Below are positions 9,642-31,358 of a stretch of DNA of 32,764 nucleotides, piece by piece. Made by a program: the position numbers and the translations under genes. The stretch is from Acidobacteriota bacterium. Lineage in GTDB: Bacteria; Acidobacteriota; Aminicenantia; JBFLYD01. Under the pieces are notes generated by a model. That model had not been told where the DNA came from and did no database searches. It was given only the letters and a program-made list of their open reading frames with translations. The stretch is taken from positions 1 through 32,764 of the forward strand of contig JBFLYD010000001.1 of NCBI GenBank assembly GCA_040756905.1. Direction: 5' to 3'. Every line of letters begins with the position of its first letter. Position 1 is the stretch's first letter.

Positions 9642-9671
9642 TTTAAAAGTAAAATTAATAGTGTGCTGGAG

Positions 9672-9746
9672 CGCCCCCAACCGGATTTGAACCGGTGTTG
9701 CCGCCTTGAAAGGGCGATGTCCTAGTCCAGACTAGACGATAGGGGC
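9672..9746 (-). tRNA. tRNA-Glu (TTC)
   Basis: This is a 75-nt cloverleaf. The acceptor stem is GCCCCTA pairing with TGGGGGC, the anticodon arm CGCC-CTTTCAA-GGCG gives anticodon TTC, and the T-arm is ACCGG-TTCAAAT-CCGGT. CCA is not encoded. It lies 5 bases after tRNA-Lys on the same strand and must share its promoter, so it too is affected by the insertion at tRNA-Lys. Confidence 0.93.
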
Positions 9747-9751
9747 ATTTT

Positions 9752-9823
9752 TGACCCGTGCTGGACTCGAACCAGCGACTCCCTGCTTAAAAGGCAGGTG
9801 CTCTCCCTCTGAGCTAACGGGCC
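9752..9823 (-). tRNA. tRNA-Lys (TTT), integration target
   Basis: This is a 72-nt cloverleaf. The acceptor stem is GGCCCGT with ACGGGTC (one G-U pair), the anticodon arm CCTGC-CTTTTAA-GCAGG gives TTT, and the T-arm is CTGG-TTCGAGT-CCAG. CCA is not encoded. Its 5' half through the anticodon loop (9784-9823) is repeated at 19812-19851, so the present 5' half came with the integrated element while the 3' half is original. The integrase stop codon lies inside it. Confidence 0.93.
9784..9823 (-). repeat. attachment site (att) inside tRNA-Lys, 40-bp core
   Basis: Forty bases are identical to 19812-19851, in the same orientation, covering tRNA-Lys from its first base to the anticodon loop. This is the left boundary of the integrated element. 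It also contains the last two sense codons and the TAG stop of the integrase. Confidence 0.88.
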
Positions 9824-10995
9824 GAATTATTATTAATAAAGGATTTCCTAAAGTCAATGTTTTCCAAAACTTCCAATTGTGGATAATTTGCGTCTATTTT
9901 TTCTTGAGTCTCTTCACTCATCACAGGAAGAATTGAATTAACTGTTTTTCTTAAGCCTTCCATAGTAGCATGGCTATATCTTGATGTCATTCTTATATCT
10001 GCATGTCCTAATATTTCCTTAAGAGATATTATATCACAATTTCTTTGAATAGTGTAGGTAGAAAAAGTATGCCTCAAATCGTGAAATCGAAATCCTATTA
10101 TTTTAGCTCTTCTGCATGCATTTTCAAACGACCTTCTTATTGAGTGCATCGGCTTACCGTTTCTTTCATCGATAAATACATACTCATTGATTCTTCTAAT
10201 GTTCTTTAAAGTTTCTAATAACATGGAATTCATTGGAATTCTTCTTATCTTACCGTTTTTTGAGTGAGTGATATGGATAAATCCTTCCTGGAAATTCACC
10301 TGTCCCCACCTAAGATAAAGAATCTCCCTTAGTCTCATTCCTGTATTTAGTGCAGTAATAATAATCGGTTTAAGATGGCCGTTTGATTCCTGGAGTAATT
10401 TTTTGATTTCCTCTGGAGTTAAGATTTTCTCTCTCGGTTCTTCTTTCAGAAACCTAATCCCTTTTACTGGATTTGAATCAGCTAATTCCCATTTAATAGC
10501 AAGGTTAAACATTCGCTTCAATAAGGCCAATTCTCGATTTATTGTTGCGTTAGAAGGAGTTTTTTTAATCTTTTTTACTGGCGAAATCTTAATTTCCTTT
10601 TTCCTTTCTATTTTGTATTGTTCTACTAAAAAGTTTGTTATTTGAGATAATTTAAATCCAGAAAAATAACCGCTTAGATGTTTAGCTAAATGGATATCGT
10701 TAGGCCAACTTTTTCTGTTAATCTTAGCCCATTCAAAATATTTCTCTACCATTTCCATAAAGGAGATTTTAACCTGTCTTGGCAATTTGTATCTTTGCTG
10801 ATAGATGTCTCCTTGTCTCATCTTCATGACCTTCTCTGCATCTGATTTTGATTCAAATCCACCCTCTCTCACCCGCCTTCCATTGAAATAATAAGCAATC
10901 CAAAACTTTTTGCCCCTTAAAAAAATTGAGCCAGTCCCGTAGGGACGTCTTGTTCTCCTTTTACCCATTTTCTCTGACTCATCGGTGAGATTCAT
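9814..10995 (-). CDS. int: Tyrosine recombinase, integrase of the element
   Basis: The integrase has 393 residues from ATG at 10995, chosen because GAGGA lies 8 bases upstream; an upstream TTG at 11019 is less likely. An N-terminal arm-binding domain (RPYGTGSIFLRGKKFWIAYY) is followed by a core-binding SAM-like domain at about 75-180 and the catalytic domain with all expected residues: R221 in TGMRLREI, K246, H305 and R308 in HDLRH, H331 in LGH, and the nucleophile Y340 in SRYSH. It should integrate the element into tRNA-Lys by recombination across the 40-bp core. The C-terminus ends S-A-R-stop, with A, R and TAG lying inside the tRNA. These last codons also carry a promoter-like pair. It follows the excisionase-like gene by about 100 bases. 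Confidence 0.92.
   Translation of the reverse strand: MNLTDESEKMGKRRTRRPYGTGSIFLRGKKFWIAYYFNGRRVREGGFESKSDAEKVMKMRQGDIYQQRYKLPRQVKISFMEMVEKYFEWAKINRKSWPNDIHLAKHLSGYFSGFKLSQITNFLVEQYKIERKKEIKISPVKKIKKTPSNATINRELALLKRMFNLAIKWELADSNPVKGIRFLKEEPREKILTPEEIKKLLQESNGHLKPIIITALNTGMRLREILYLRWGQVNFQEGFIHITHSKNGKIRRIPMNSMLLETLKNIRRINEYVFIDERNGKPMHSIRRSFENACRRAKIIGFRFHDLRHTFSTYTIQRNCDIISLKEILGHADIRMTSRYSHATMEGLRKTVNSILPVMSEETQEKIDANYPQLEVLENIDFRKSFINNNSAR
9829..9857 (-). promoter_or_regulatory. Replacement tRNA-Lys promoter inside the integrase coding sequence
   Basis: On the minus strand, TTGACT (9857-9852), 17 bases and AATAAT (9834-9829) end five bases before tRNA-Lys. The displaced host promoter at the other end begins with the same ten bases, TTGACTTTAG, with the same spacer length. 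The bases also encode the integrase residues IDFRKSFINNN. The element thus appears to bring its own tRNA promoter. Confidence 0.6.
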
Positions 10996-11096
10996 ATCAA
11001 ATTTCCTCAAAAATATCAACTACAATGCGATTAGAGAGGAGATTTAGGAGAAACCCTATATAAATCATTAACCCTGAATCTTGAAAAATCATAGCT

Positions 11097-11381
11097 TTAG
11101 TTATTTTTGATTCTTTCGAAGAATTCATCCAAATCCTCGTTCTTGGTTAATTTTTTTGCCTTTTTTGTTTTCTCTGGAATTGAATCTATCTCCAAATTAT
11201 ACTGAGTCCTTTTCTCCAACCATTCATCCAAAGCCTTTTTCCTGACCCTTAGAGGTGCTTTTCTTCCTTCTCCTAATTTACAAACAGGGATAGACCTTTT
11301 CCACGCCCATTTCTTTACAGTAGAAAGTGATAGGCTCAAATATTCGGCTGTCTCTTCCAGGGTAAGAATCTCTTTATTCAC
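11097..11381 (-). CDS. Excisionase-like helix-turn-helix protein
   Basis: This is a 94-residue protein from GTG at 11381, with GGGAG about ten bases upstream. Residues 3-55 are a MerR/excisionase winged-helix domain (LTLEETAEYLSLSLSTVKKWAW, then PVCKLGEGRKAPLRVRKKALDEWL). The lysine-rich tail has no known fold. Its position next to the integrase and its domain make a recombination directionality factor likely; a plain transcription regulator is the alternative. It overlaps the upstream XRE-type gene by eight bases, so it is translated from the long operon. Confidence 0.75.
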   Translation of the reverse strand: MNKEILTLEETAEYLSLSLSTVKKWAWKRSIPVCKLGEGRKAPLRVRKKALDEWLEKRTQYNLEIDSIPEKTKKAKKLTKNEDLDEFFERIKNN

Positions 11382-12493: not shown

Positions 12494-12710
12494 TTCTGAT
12501 TACTCCGATTGATTCTCTCTTTTTAGCTTCTCTGTTTATTCTTTTTAATTCATTTCCAATATAATCGTTTATCTCTTTCAACCTTATTTCTAACTCTTCA
12601 AAGAGTTTTTTTCTTTCGTTTGAATCTTTTTCTTTTCTTATTCTTGATGTAGCAAAATTAAGATAGATATTCAGCAAACTTATTAAATCCAGGTCTTTCT
12701 CAATACTCAT
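12477..12710 (-). CDS. Small hypothetical helical protein
   Basis: The 77-residue protein is strongly charged and predicted all-helical (RKEKDSNERKKLFEELEIRL). No family is recognised. It overlaps the helicase gene by 11 bases and the zinc-ribbon gene by 17, so it is translated within the operon. A helicase partner or loader role is possible from position only. Confidence 0.55.
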   Translation of the reverse strand: MSIEKDLDLISLLNIYLNFATSRIRKEKDSNERKKLFEELEIRLKEINDYIGNELKRINREAKKRESIGVIRNEKAL

Positions 12711-13917
12711 TTGTTATCTCCAAAATTCTCCCTGTTTGTTTATCAAAATGACATTCCATAAGCTTGGTATCTCCTCTTTTGTTTTTGAGAAGTTTTACAA
12801 TCATCTTATTTTTAAATTTCTCTCCGCTTTCTTCATCAATCTCTGGTCTCCAGAGGCCTATAACAAAGTCCGATTTCTCCTCAACTGCTCCGGAGTCTCG
12901 AGCCATGTTTAACCTCACCGGAATACTGCCGTCTTCAGCCTCTCTCGATAATTGATGAACTAAGATAATCAAAACATTTTCCTCTTTAGCTAATTTCTTG
13001 ATGTCGGTTATAAGACTTGTTGTTTTCAAATACAAAGAGCTAAAGAATTCCGTTTTGATGAGGTCAAGGAAATCGATGAAAATTATCCTTAAGTTTTTGT
13101 TTTTGATTATCCTTCTGATTTCTTCAATTGAGTATATGTTTGAGAAAATCTCTACATTTTTGAAAGTATTTAAAAATTCTTCCTGATATTCTAAATTTGA
13201 AGAAACCGCTAAAACTTGCTCAGCATTGAGGTTAAAATATATCTGCCAGAGCCTTTCTGTGATAGATTCTTTAGGCATTTCCAGTGAGAAGAATCCTATT
13301 TTTTCGGTATGAGTTGAAACTATGTTCTTGAGGATGTTTAAAGCTAAGAATGTTTTTCCTACTGTAGTTCTTGCCATGATAAGAAGGATTTCGCCAAACC
13401 TAAATCCTCTTGTTGCTCTATCTATTGTTGGTAATCCCAAAGTTATTCCTGGGCTTTTTGATGTTGTAAGGCCAATAAATTCTTTTAGACAAAACTCTAT
13501 AGAGGAATCCTCTGTTTCTGTTTCTGGAATATCAGCTTTAGTTAGAATCTTTTTGAATCTTTCTAAATCAAATTTTGGTTCTTCCGATAATGCTTTCAAC
13601 TCTTTAAAAACAGATTCTTTGACTTTTGTTTCCTGAAGTTCCCTTATAAAACTTTTTAATTCACTCTCAGCATTTGAAAAGTTTATATAGCTGGTATTCT
13701 TCAAGATAGAATTAAAATATTCTATTGGAATCTCATCTTTCAGGTTCTCTATTATTTGCAGCAAGCTGAATGTTTTTCCTTCTTCTTTGTGGAGTTTTTT
13801 CATCTCCCTGTATATAAGCTTAGCTGGTTCAGAAAAAAGCTCTTCTGGGATATCCTCTCTGAATAAAGAATCGTCATTTAGCATTGTTCCGATTATTGCT
13901 TGCTCTAATGAAATCAT
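12700..13917 (-). CDS. DnaB-like replicative helicase
   Basis: The protein has 405 residues, slightly shorter than bacterial DnaB. The N-terminal DnaB domain (SLEQAIIGTMLNDDSLFREDI) precedes a RecA-fold ATPase: GLPTIDRATRGFRFGEILLI, Walker A ARTTVGKT at 182-189, SLEMPKESITERL, Walker B LRIIFIDFLDLI with D282, and a switch region VHQLSREAEDG followed by DSGAVEEKSDFVIGLWRPE. It should unwind DNA at the element's fork. Its ATGA start overlaps the stop of the O-like initiator, the usual initiator-helicase order of lambdoid phages. No separate DnaC/P-type loader is recognised. This is strong evidence that the element replicates on its own at some stage. Confidence 0.88.
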   Translation of the reverse strand: MISLEQAIIGTMLNDDSLFREDIPEELFSEPAKLIYREMKKLHKEEGKTFSLLQIIENLKDEIPIEYFNSILKNTSYINFSNAESELKSFIRELQETKVKESVFKELKALSEEPKFDLERFKKILTKADIPETETEDSSIEFCLKEFIGLTTSKSPGITLGLPTIDRATRGFRFGEILLIMARTTVGKTFLALNILKNIVSTHTEKIGFFSLEMPKESITERLWQIYFNLNAEQVLAVSSNLEYQEEFLNTFKNVEIFSNIYSIEEIRRIIKNKNLRIIFIDFLDLIKTEFFSSLYLKTTSLITDIKKLAKEENVLIILVHQLSREAEDGSIPVRLNMARDSGAVEEKSDFVIGLWRPEIDEESGEKFKNKMIVKLLKNKRGDTKLMECHFDKQTGRILEITNEY

Positions 13918-14771
13918 CTTAACCCCGCTTTTTTTAGTTCTTCCATTGTTAAATCATAAGCCGATGGTTTCTTGTTTCCAGTTTCTGATTTTGAATAGTT
14001 TTCAAATGGTTTATTTTCTGTTAAGAATTTCTCAAGCCCTCTCTGAAGAAACTCCTTTAAAGTCCATTTGTAAGTCCAGAAATACTTATCATCAGTTAGG
14101 ATGGTATAGTAATTGTCAATTGCTTCTTTTATCTCTTCGGGAGAGTATTTTTTAAGCCGAGCATTAATTACACTCTGAAGGTTAGCTGTTAACTCTCGGT
14201 GTTTGATTATTCCCTTAGAGTTCCAATAAGAGAAGATATCTTGTATAGGGGAAGTTTTTTCTTCTTTTTGAGAATTCGGACTATATATATTTTCTTTTGT
14301 AATAGTTTCTTTTGTGGGTGCAAGAATTTGTATATCTTTTTCAAGTTCTTGCACTACCCCTATTTTTCTTGCACTACCCATTTTCTTCTTGGTAGCATAA
14401 TAATTCCTTCTATTTTCAAGGATTTTCGTATATTGAGGTGTTTTTTCTTGCACTACCCATTGGTCATAATCCTTATTAAATTTAATGGTGCTTATTTCGT
14501 TAGAATTTCTATTTCTTTTTCGATATATAATAATCATTCTTTTGGCCTCGAGATTCTGGAGAGCATAAATTATCATCCTTCTGCTTTTCCCTGTCATTTT
14601 TTGTAATTGAGAAATACTAATTTTGTCTTCTCTTTTATTCCAACCATATGTTTTACGGAGAATTGCCCATATAATTTGCCCTTCAGTAAATCCCGGCATT
14701 GCTTTTGCCAGTGCCTCTACAATTTCATTAGCTATCTTTGTGTAGCCATTTTCAACTTGTGGATTTGCCAT
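13914..14771 (-). CDS. Phage O-like replication initiator
   Basis: The 285-residue protein has a start confirmed by GGAGG about seven bases upstream. Residues 1-100 match the N-terminal domain of phage lambda O-type initiators (NPQVENGYTKIANEIVEALA, then a winged helix around TEGQIIWAILRKTYGWNKREDKIS). The C-terminal half has a helical segment (YSPEEIKEAIDNYYTIL, TYKWTLKEFLQRGLEKFL) seen in phage replication proteins that contact the helicase. In lambda, O binds iterons that lie within its own gene. Candidate repeats here are in the gap at 16155-16664. It overlaps the helicase gene by four bases and the 70-aa gene by 20. Confidence 0.82.
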   Translation of the reverse strand: MANPQVENGYTKIANEIVEALAKAMPGFTEGQIIWAILRKTYGWNKREDKISISQLQKMTGKSRRMIIYALQNLEAKRMIIIYRKRNRNSNEISTIKFNKDYDQWVVQEKTPQYTKILENRRNYYATKKKMGSARKIGVVQELEKDIQILAPTKETITKENIYSPNSQKEEKTSPIQDIFSYWNSKGIIKHRELTANLQSVINARLKKYSPEEIKEAIDNYYTILTDDKYFWTYKWTLKEFLQRGLEKFLTENKPFENYSKSETGNKKPSAYDLTMEELKKAGLR

Positions 14772-18067: not shown

Positions 18068-18976
18068 CTACCACCTGACAAATTTCTCTGCCCCCTGAGA
18101 TATCCTCTTTAGGTTATGAGCATATATAAGCGTGGTATTTATATTCTGATGTCTCAGCATGTCTTTAACCTGCACAATATCCGCCCCATTCATCAAGGCC
18201 AAGGTTGCTGAGGAATGCCTGAAACTGTAAGCAGATATTTTATTTGTTTTTATTCCAGCCTCTTTCAATCTGTTAAATATTATTTTTCTTATCCCGGAGA
18301 TTGTCAATCTTTTTCCTAAGCTTCTGTCTGAATGAGAAATAAAAAGGGAGTCAGAAGGTTTATAATTCTTTCTCATATTAAGATACTCCATAATAGGCTT
18401 ATAAGATTCTTCAACCAAGATAACAAAGTCATCTTTAGAGTCTGAGCCTTTACCTTGCACTTTTAAAATCCATTCTCCTGAATCGAAGATAATATCCTCA
18501 ATATTAGCTCTGGATACTTCGCAAGTTCTTAATCCAGTCCTAAGCATTAGGTTAATAATGGCAAAATCTCTTTTACCTATGATTGTAGACTTATCAACTG
18601 AGGAAAGAAGCTTGACTATCTGAGACTGTATTAGTGGAGATTTAAAATAACCTTTAGGCTTTTTCACTCCTTTAATTCCCTTGGTTATATCAGGGTAAAG
18701 CCTTTGAGATTCTAAAAAAGTAAAAAGCCTTCTTAAAGCTGTTAAATAACTGGAGATTGTAAAGGCAGATAGTTTTTTCTCTTTTAGGTGATTCTTAAAA
18801 GAAATAATATCTTCTTTTCCAGGCTTATCGATTTGATTCTCATATAGCCAATTAGAGAATACCTTTAGAGCTTTTGAATAAGTCTCTTTAGTTGATTCTC
18901 TCAAATCCATTCTATTGAGGATTTCTTCAAGGGAAAGAGAGGATAAATCGCCGAATTTAATTTGAATTATGCTCAT
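18068..18976 (-). CDS. Second tyrosine recombinase, XerC/D-like
   Basis: The 302-residue protein has an N-terminal SAM-like core-binding domain (STKETYSKALKVFSNWL) and a catalytic domain with R150 (RTGLRTCEVSR), K176, R253 in YSFRHSS, H276 (MLRH) and the nucleophile Y285 (TTLIYAH). The first His of the HxxR box is replaced by Tyr250, a change seen in some active family members. Its size and lack of an arm-binding domain resemble Xer recombinases. It lies at the end opposite the integrase. Its ATG overlaps the stop of a small HTH gene, so the two are coupled. It may resolve multimers, help excision or invert DNA. Confidence 0.87.
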   Translation of the reverse strand: MSIIQIKFGDLSSLSLEEILNRMDLRESTKETYSKALKVFSNWLYENQIDKPGKEDIISFKNHLKEKKLSAFTISSYLTALRRLFTFLESQRLYPDITKGIKGVKKPKGYFKSPLIQSQIVKLLSSVDKSTIIGKRDFAIINLMLRTGLRTCEVSRANIEDIIFDSGEWILKVQGKGSDSKDDFVILVEESYKPIMEYLNMRKNYKPSDSLFISHSDRSLGKRLTISGIRKIIFNRLKEAGIKTNKISAYSFRHSSATLALMNGADIVQVKDMLRHQNINTTLIYAHNLKRISQGAEKFVRW

Positions 18977-19188
18977 TTCTTCTTACGCCTTTCTTTCCTT
19001 TTCTTTTCAAAGAAAGAGCCTTGTAAAAATTCCTTTAATGATTCTTCGGAGATGTAAACCTTACCACCTATTTTTTGAAATCTTATCTTTCCACTATAAA
19101 CATAATTTCTTACTGCTCTTAAAGTAATTCCTAACTGTTTCGAGACCTCTTCCAGGGAATAGAGTTTTATTCCTGCAATTTTTAACAT
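18973..19188 (-). CDS. Excisionase/MerR-like small HTH protein
   Basis: The 71-residue helix-turn-helix protein reads YSLEEVSKQLGITLRAVRNYV, then GKIRFQKIGGKVYISEESLKEFL, the typical excisionase/MerR DNA-binding wing, and ends in a very basic tail (KKRKERRKKK). It overlaps the second recombinase by ATGA. This pairing suggests a directionality factor dedicated to that recombinase, distinct from the one next to the integrase. Confidence 0.75.
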   Translation of the reverse strand: MLKIAGIKLYSLEEVSKQLGITLRAVRNYVYSGKIRFQKIGGKVYISEESLKEFLQGSFFEKKRKERRKKK

Positions 19189-29606: not shown

Positions 29607-31358
29607 CTACCACCAAGGAAGCCCAGAAACTAATTTATCGAACTCTGTCTTTACATTTAGAAATCTCTCCAATGAGCCTTCAAAAAGACCATGCTTTAAA
29701 GGTAACCAATTCTTACCTGCCTGTGTGACCTCTAATTCAATTTCTTTAATAATCCACTTTTCAGGGTAACGCCTCCCCCTCCATCCAAAACACCCTATTG
29801 GTCCCCAAACATCGCCTATCTGCTTCTGACGCAAATCAGCATGAACTAAGGCAAGTAAATATTCAAATCGGTCGAAGCATTTTTTGTACTGGGTATCATC
29901 TGATAAAGATTCTTTAAAAGGCTCTCGTAACTTTTCTTCGAGTAGATCACTAATTGGTGTATAACGTCTTTCCATACCGGGTAACTGTTGTGCAACACTC
30001 TTATCCATAACTGCATAGGGATATAAAGCAAGGCCAAGGGGCTGATCTTCTATTCCCTCTTTAACTTTGACTTTGGTAAGCAAAACTGCAAATGTACCAT
30101 ATTTTTCAGCTGCAATAGAGGCAATCCCTCCTCCATAAAGGAGAAGAAGCGCAGGAAATAATCTCAATTCGAGCCATATATTTAATCCAGCCCTCTCTCC
30201 AGGTGGATTCGCGATTCGTTCAAGGCTTTTCACCCACAGGTCTTCATGTGTCTTTTCTCCCCAGTAGCAACCAGTGATCATGAGATCCCGAAGAATTTCG
30301 GTTAGAGCGTAATAGCGGTGAATACGTTTTGTCAGTTCTATTGTGCTGAATGGCACACCTTGCACTGGAAAATGCTCAATGGTTAACCCTGCATAAACTC
30401 TTTCTGTTTCCTCCATCATCAGATCATGCAGGCGAATCTTATAATGGTCGTCAACGATGTACTTCTTTAAAGTGGCTACAGCAACTTTTGATGAGAGAGG
30501 ATGTGGCCTCGAAAGCTCCTCTAATGCAAAGACCTTTTCAGCTATTTCACGAAAGAATGAATCAGCGTCCCGAATAGAAATAGTTTGTACATGCCTTAGT
30601 TTGATGAGTTTTTGCATCTGTTTTGTTGGTTTGCCTCTCATTGCCCAATATGTGGTAAACCTGTGAGTCTGGCAACGCTCAATTGCTGCTCGTAATGCTG
30701 TATCCCATTCAGCAGACCATCCACAGATTATAAGGCCAAAATCATCGAAAATTTGGTCCAATAAACGATTAATGCCTTTGTCGTATTTTGCAAGTTCATC
30801 AGGTGTATTTCTAATCCGGGTGTCGAGATAATCGCCATGGACTTTAATTATGGTACACTTTGTATGCGTAATTGGTAAAGCCCCAATGGCAGCGTCAGGA
30901 GTACTGATGACCGTTGGTACAATACCTACCTCCTCTATGGCTTCCTCTATTAAACGATCAAAATTAGTTGTAACAATAACCCGGATATATCCCTTTACTA
31001 CTAGTTCAGCTATCGCCTTGTGCGCTTCAGTTGGTATTTTTAGATGTTGCTCCCTTTCTTCTTCAGTGGGCTCAAAGTAACTCCTTAGAAGCTGACTGCG
31101 TTCTGCTTGTGACTTTGCAACTATATTAAGCAACTTGTTATAGTTTGGTGCTTCACCGAATGTAGCTTCGTACCAGGCAGCGGGATCAGGCTCACAATTC
31201 TCACCTTTGAGATGTGCCACTTTACGGATGAGATCTAATACCACCTCCCAACCTGTTGGAATACCAGCAGACCGCGACACTCCAGAGCCAATGAGTAATG
31301 CATACACCCCTTTATTAGAGTGCATAGAAAATGCTAACGAAATGATAGGTTCAATCAT
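29607..31358 (-). CDS. SIR2-domain protein, putative NAD-consuming defence effector
   Basis: The 583-residue protein has an N-terminal SIR2-like Rossmann domain at about 1-290. LLIGSGVSRSAGIPTGWE at 21-38 is the NAD-binding loop, VTTNFDRLIEEA at 128-139 and KVHGDYLD at 171-178 the catalytic His/Asp region, and LIICGWSAEWD at 208-218 closes the pocket. These are the marks of SIR2_2-type proteins, many of which drain NAD during phage attack. The C-terminal 290 residues (HYKIRLHDLMMEETERVYAG, LFPALLLLYGGGIASIAA) are unknown and may sense infection. The gene seems more GC-rich than the HEPN gene. A two-gene unit with the HEPN gene is possible but unproven. Confidence 0.82.
   Translation of the reverse strand: MIEPIISLAFSMHSNKGVYALLIGSGVSRSAGIPTGWEVVLDLIRKVAHLKGENCEPDPAAWYEATFGEAPNYNKLLNIVAKSQAERSQLLRSYFEPTEEEREQHLKIPTEAHKAIAELVVKGYIRVIVTTNFDRLIEEAIEEVGIVPTVISTPDAAIGALPITHTKCTIIKVHGDYLDTRIRNTPDELAKYDKGINRLLDQIFDDFGLIICGWSAEWDTALRAAIERCQTHRFTTYWAMRGKPTKQMQKLIKLRHVQTISIRDADSFFREIAEKVFALEELSRPHPLSSKVAVATLKKYIVDDHYKIRLHDLMMEETERVYAGLTIEHFPVQGVPFSTIELTKRIHRYYALTEILRDLMITGCYWGEKTHEDLWVKSLERIANPPGERAGLNIWLELRLFPALLLLYGGGIASIAAEKYGTFAVLLTKVKVKEGIEDQPLGLALYPYAVMDKSVAQQLPGMERRYTPISDLLEEKLREPFKESLSDDTQYKKCFDRFEYLLALVHADLRQKQIGDVWGPIGCFGWRGRRYPEKWIIKEIELEVTQAGKNWLPLKHGLFEGSLERFLNVKTEFDKLVSGLPWW

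Follow-up and report, generated by a model that had tools for sequence, protein, structure and literature searches.

The tRNA-Lys(UUU)/tRNA-Glu(UUC) operon of this Acidobacteriota bacterium lies directly behind the integrase gene (int) of a phage-like element of about 10 kb, and would be transcribed from a sigma-70-type sequence, TTGACT-17-AATAAT, contained in the last codons of int (minus strand, 9857-9829) and ending 5 nt from tRNA-Lys. The probability that this candidate site is the replacement promoter for the operon is put at about 0.7, based on sequence and matrix scores. We infer that RNA polymerase uses the two hexamers, and the predicted transcription start is at, or adjoining, nt 1 of tRNA-Lys. 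The stretch of DNA analyzed (the window, 32,764 nt) provides a well-bounded example of insertion into the 5' half of the first gene in a tRNA operon that is both single-copy and needed. Few tRNA-targeting elements make this choice, and the exact bases for testing can be named. The int gene, both tRNA genes, both att copies and both of the promoter sites described below are on the minus strand, and the host genome is AT-rich (35% GC).

The element is flanked on both sides by nt 1-40 of tRNA-Lys(UUU), repeated without a mismatch: one copy adjoins int (9823-9784) and the other lies at the far end (19851-19812; 40/40 identity). Between the att copies are the tyrosine integrase gene (9814-11019; PF00589, 6e-33; phrog_1, 2e-72), in which the residues of the catalytic domain are conserved, a gene for an HTH_17 protein that is likely an excisionase (11097-11381; PF12728, 1e-13; phrog_66) and, according to profile matches, genes for a DnaB-like helicase (12700-13917), an O-like replication protein (13914-14771) and a second tyrosine recombinase (18068-18976), all on the minus strand, as well as regulators. 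Profile searches recognized no structural phage genes within the element, which suggests that it is likely to be satellite-like or a reduced phage. The complete tRNA at one end, the upstream 5' fragment in the same orientation at the other, and the tyrosine integrase are features of a 5'-fragment tDNA island. Since the 5' half of tRNA-Lys and the native promoter are found at one end of the element and the complete tRNA at the other, the insertion displaced the 5' half together with the host promoter, and left the operon behind int. Recombination would have taken place in the anticodon-loop region of tRNA-Lys(UUU), with the element oriented such that the 5' half was displaced; attP brought in tRNA nt 1-40 and so restored the tRNA sequence, while the host promoter ended up at the opposite end of the element. 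Outside the element, at 29607-31358, is a gene for a 583-aa protein with a SIR2_2 domain, possibly a defense protein.

The intact tRNA-Lys(UUU) gene (9752-9823, predicted by ARAGORN) is a composite, with nt 1-40 (9823-9784) in the att identity block and nt 41-72 from the host. The tRNA-Glu(UUC) gene follows 5 nt downstream (9671-9746) and has no promoter of its own; the Lys-Glu pair is conserved in the class. In 29 genomes of the same class, with no genome nearer than this, the element is absent and the operon is uninterrupted, immediately preceded by a promoter of the TTGAC type. In the host genome (97.8% complete), tRNA-Lys(ttt) and tRNA-Glu(ttc) are each encoded once, and the remaining Lys and Glu tRNA genes carry ctt and ctc anticodons, which under standard decoding rules read AAG and GAG only. 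Among host ORFs in the window, AAA and GAA codons are used about twice as often as AAG and GAG (~2:1), and both tRNAs are needed to decode them. As tRNA-Lys and tRNA-Glu are single copy and needed, the element must therefore allow their transcription. A preliminary description of this DNA had called the host promoter displaced and stated that insertion in the 5' half would otherwise silence both tRNAs. The displacement was borne out: the two single-copy genes form one operon, the promoter of which has been moved away with the 5' half.

The same description had the int frame entering tRNA-Lys and stopping within it, with TTGACT, 17 bases and AATAAT placed five bases before the tRNA, and both details are correct. 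The stop codon (TAG, 9814-9816) corresponds to nt 8-10 of tRNA-Lys(ttt), and the final codons of int are ATT GAC TTT AGG AAA TCC TTT ATT AAT AAT AAT TCG GCC CGT TAG. They carry TTGACT (9857-9852), a 17-nt spacer, AATAAT (9834-9829) and AATTC (9828-9824), followed by G1 of the tRNA (9823). The native tRNA promoters of this genome are mostly of the form TTGAC[A/T]-17/18-TAnnnT and lie 5-19 nt, mostly 8 nt, from the tRNA. With a matrix built from these promoters (the host-trained matrix), the int-tail site scores 13.1 bits, the displaced host promoter 13.8 and the native promoters 10.0-18.0. A score of 13.1 is reached by 26 of 17,721 coding-strand positions and by 15 of 20,000 random codon tails, giving a chance level of 0.08-0.15% overall for a site that had been chosen beforehand, in the preliminary description. 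A host-type promoter-like site thus lies directly upstream of the restored tRNA, as in a replacement-promoter element. Promoter-like sites are not in excess in the surrounding DNA (4 found, 4.8 expected, in a lenient consensus scan of a 1.9-kb region). The 5-nt discriminator, which occurs in one native case (tRNA-Met, L047), is the shortest among the native promoters, and the transcript would have next to no 5' leader on which RNase P could act; this counts against the proposed promoter. Promoter and coding functions would hardly conflict, because the protein tail beyond the catalytic Tyr is unconserved.

The original host promoter (TTGACT-17-TATAAA, 19889-19861), recognized by its sequence and with the host-trained matrix, faces into the element, and 10 kb now separate it from the tRNA operon. 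It consists of TTGACT (19889-19884), a 17-nt spacer and TATAAA (19866-19861), and is separated by 9 nt from the displaced 40-nt tRNA copy. Within the window, the sequence TTGACTTTAG is present once in the int-tail site, once in the displaced promoter and nowhere else. That these two sites have TTGACTTTAG and the spacer length in common, as was first noted in the preliminary description, is accurate, although TTGACTTTAG adds little, being mostly the -35 common to host tRNA promoters. TTGAC[A/T] begins most tRNA promoters of the genome, and TTGACTTT recurs, for example at tRNA-Ala-cgc; the identity of TTGACTTTAG was dropped as proof of copying because TTGAC[A/T] opens most of the native promoters. 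The second recombinase gene (18068-18976) and an excisionase-like gene (18973-19188) are located distally in the element, on the same strand as the displaced tRNA promoter and downstream of it, and may now be driven by it. A reciprocal exchange of promoters can be imagined, in which the element gives the operon a promoter made of int codons and gains a host tRNA promoter facing its own right-end recombinase genes, and Int binding at the interleaved att sites could couple excision to tRNA transcription; such an arrangement is improbable on present evidence.

The int tail also carries sequences resembling att sites. A core-proximal attP motif, GGAAATCCTTTA (9848-9837), lies in the promoter spacer. 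It matches the family motif, [CG]TAAgtnnTTGA, only weakly, with a score of 8.2 compared to 10.8-17 in relatives, and is equaled by 73 of 20,000 random tails. The family motif is present between int and the tRNA in part of the integrase family, in both orientations, and also in phage D3; it therefore occurs where int faces the 3' end of a tRNA and no promoter is needed. Further into int is a candidate arm-type site, TAGACGCAAATTATCCACAA (9896-9877), which resembles a second candidate, TAGACACAAATAGACACAG, in the far arm (19693-19675). Next to the latter, inspection for repeats revealed four head-to-tail 10-bp repeats (AAnTTCCTATA type, 19737-19695) that are also candidate arm sites. Given the attP motif and the arm-like site in the int tail, the 3' end of int probably serves both as coding sequence and as att DNA.

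That the hexamers are functionless AT-rich coding and attP sequence fits with the -10 sitting in an AT-rich spacer typical of attP in this family, and a generic sigma-70 matrix tested against shuffles of the 60-nt tail gave only p=0.02; the explanation is nevertheless very unlikely given the level of ~0.1% found in the host-trained tests and the loss of the promoter of two single-copy, needed tRNAs. Capture of the promoter, with attP having taken sequence from upstream of the host tRNA-Lys by imprecise excision, can be considered since ATTGACTTTAG is common to the int tail and the displaced promoter, and AATCCTTTATTAATAATAATTC resembles AATCCTTTATAAATAATACTCC of locus L093. The att identity in the window, however, ends exactly at tRNA nt 1, the likeness is limited to the -35, the -10 and AT-rich flanks, and GGAAATCCTTTA can be aligned with the family attP motif too, so that capture has little probability. 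In the preliminary description, the int tail was considered a replacement promoter that had evolved by mimicry, meaning that selection had made the tail resemble the host tRNA-Lys promoter, with insertion being tolerated as a result. Such mimicry would be a trait of the element lineage, and it concerns the origin of the site and is compatible with promoter function. The match is strong and in the right place, and the observed codons give the best score found for the peptide, but 924 of 20,000 synonymous recodings (4.6%, p=0.046) score as well, making codon choice weak and barely informative evidence. The arrangement is not common to 14 relatives (see below), and a search by protein or DNA pattern for close copies of the element, with which conservation could be compared, yielded none from 142 genomes of the class, 396 genomes of the phylum and IMG/VR. 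A host-type promoter in a usable place is the part of the earlier proposal that stands, while its evolution by mimicry is doubtful.

The closest homologues of the integrase are 53% and 51% identical to it. Fifteen independent loci, including that of the window, have an int running into the 5' end of a tRNA (Lys, Leu, SeC, Asp, Arg, Ser, Gly or Met), and at 16 loci int faces the tRNA 3' end. The integrases of locus L026 and of a genome of the same class as the host (G110) have an identical C-terminus. One integrase family therefore uses the anticodon-loop site in both orientations, and for the members that displace the 5' half, it can be asked by what means transcription of their tRNAs is maintained. 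The -35/-10 arrangement of the window was found next to the tRNA in none of the 14 other 5'-facing loci, the two closest relatives included; a viral contig (L155) has a site of similar score (10.1), but its -10 is 19 nt from the tRNA. In G244 (tRNA-Arg), the 5' half was confirmed to have been displaced, with a 33/34-nt match lying 10.0 kb away, and G055 contains 5' fragments of tRNA-SeC. In G075, the tRNA-Asp behind such an int is the sole complete copy found and has no clear promoter nearby. Within 25 nt of the tRNA, promoter scores are alike in the 5'- and 3'-facing sets (p=0.48), while over the last 220 nt they are higher in the 5'-facing set (p=0.008, uncorrected, one of two tests). This latter difference is led by L020 (G080:C188), with a very good TTGACT-17-TATTAT in the int coding region, about 203 nt before tRNA-Leu and pointing at it. 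Since the positions and scores differ, and G075 lacks a clear promoter, the 5'-facing elements have no single promoter solution in common, and for some relatives it is plausible that the tRNA is transcribed by read-through or from a distant internal promoter. Conservation of the -35/-10 bases across related integrases had been proposed as a check. The functional tRNAs of the 14 relatives apparently manage without the arrangement, which rules out the int-tail promoter as a trait or strategy of the family but does not refute such a function for the site in the window. Probably, the promoter belongs to the free int tail of this one element, whether selected or fortuitous in AT-rich DNA, and is not a strategy conserved across the integrase family.

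Transcription could instead reach the tRNAs by read-through, starting further upstream at the promoter of int itself or at one inside int, and the hexamers next to the tRNA would then be incidental. With the int stop codon inside the tRNA, a terminator between the two is impossible, and a possible source of transcripts is present at 10127-10100 (TTGAAA-16-TAAAAT). The int genes of integrated elements are usually repressed, and repression would limit an essential tRNA. The family scores over 220 nt favor read-through, as does the equality of the tRNA-adjacent scores, but the tRNA-adjacent site in the window scores within the range of native tRNA promoters. Read-through has also been proposed for archaeal elements of the pTN3 type, in which the integrase promoter would drive the tRNA (PMC8371274). 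On balance, it is a possible but unlikely source of the tRNA transcripts in the window.

The idea of a replacement promoter is already known from other elements, and the window is a further case with a well-placed candidate promoter inside int. Displaced 5' tRNA fragments were found in 159 of 3,919 tDNA islands by Islander (PMC4383910), and these share with the window an att core in the anticodon region, an intact tRNA with a displaced 5' fragment, a tyrosine integrase and loss of the original promoter. That paper is silent on what drives the restored tRNA, and in the window a candidate can be located inside int. In archaeal integrases of the pTN3/TKV4 type (PMC5495485, PMC8371274), attB is likewise the 5' half of a tRNA, with 41-bp identity, separation of the tRNA from its promoter and sequence overlap between int and the tRNA. 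There, however, integration splits int, and expression of the tRNA is attributed to the integrase promoter, whereas in the window the stop codon is in the identity block, integration leaves int whole and unchanged, and the candidate promoter abuts the tRNA. Islands associated with dusA (PMC4482086) also integrate at the 5' end of a gene and bring putative new -10/-35 sites, but their target is protein-coding. Phage D3 has a related integrase (29% identity), the same TAA..TTGA motif at the end of int and an attP annotation directly after it, but its int lies on the strand opposite to the tRNA-like sequence that it faces, and the host promoter would therefore be expected to remain in place. In phage Mx8, int overlaps attP (PMC4701971) and the C-terminus of Int is altered by integration, unlike that in the window. 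DLP12/argU and epsilon34 were considered as precedents and dropped; epsilon34 replaces the 3' portion of argU.

Several other arrangements were seen among the relatives. Three int genes of the family, at L009, L239 and in the window (9814-9816), end at tRNA nt 8-10, where U8-A9-G10 is read as TAG; many tRNAs provide this stop codon for a gene that enters them from the 5' side. G055 has several full and partial copies of tRNA-SeC (L104, L139, L140, L141 and L142), some being displaced 5' halves beside a far arm of the element family, and the int tail of L104 and the copy in L140 share ATAATAAATGC upstream of the tRNA. A tRNA-Met (L246, G480:C13) has apparently been invaded from both sides, with one int at its 5' end and a second at its 3' end. 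Invasion from both sides is also apparent for a tRNA-Leu (L103, G097:C347:2581-2642) and a tRNA-Asp (L277, G075:C70:192238-192287), each with an int pointing at its 5' end and, downstream, a 3' copy that has been displaced.
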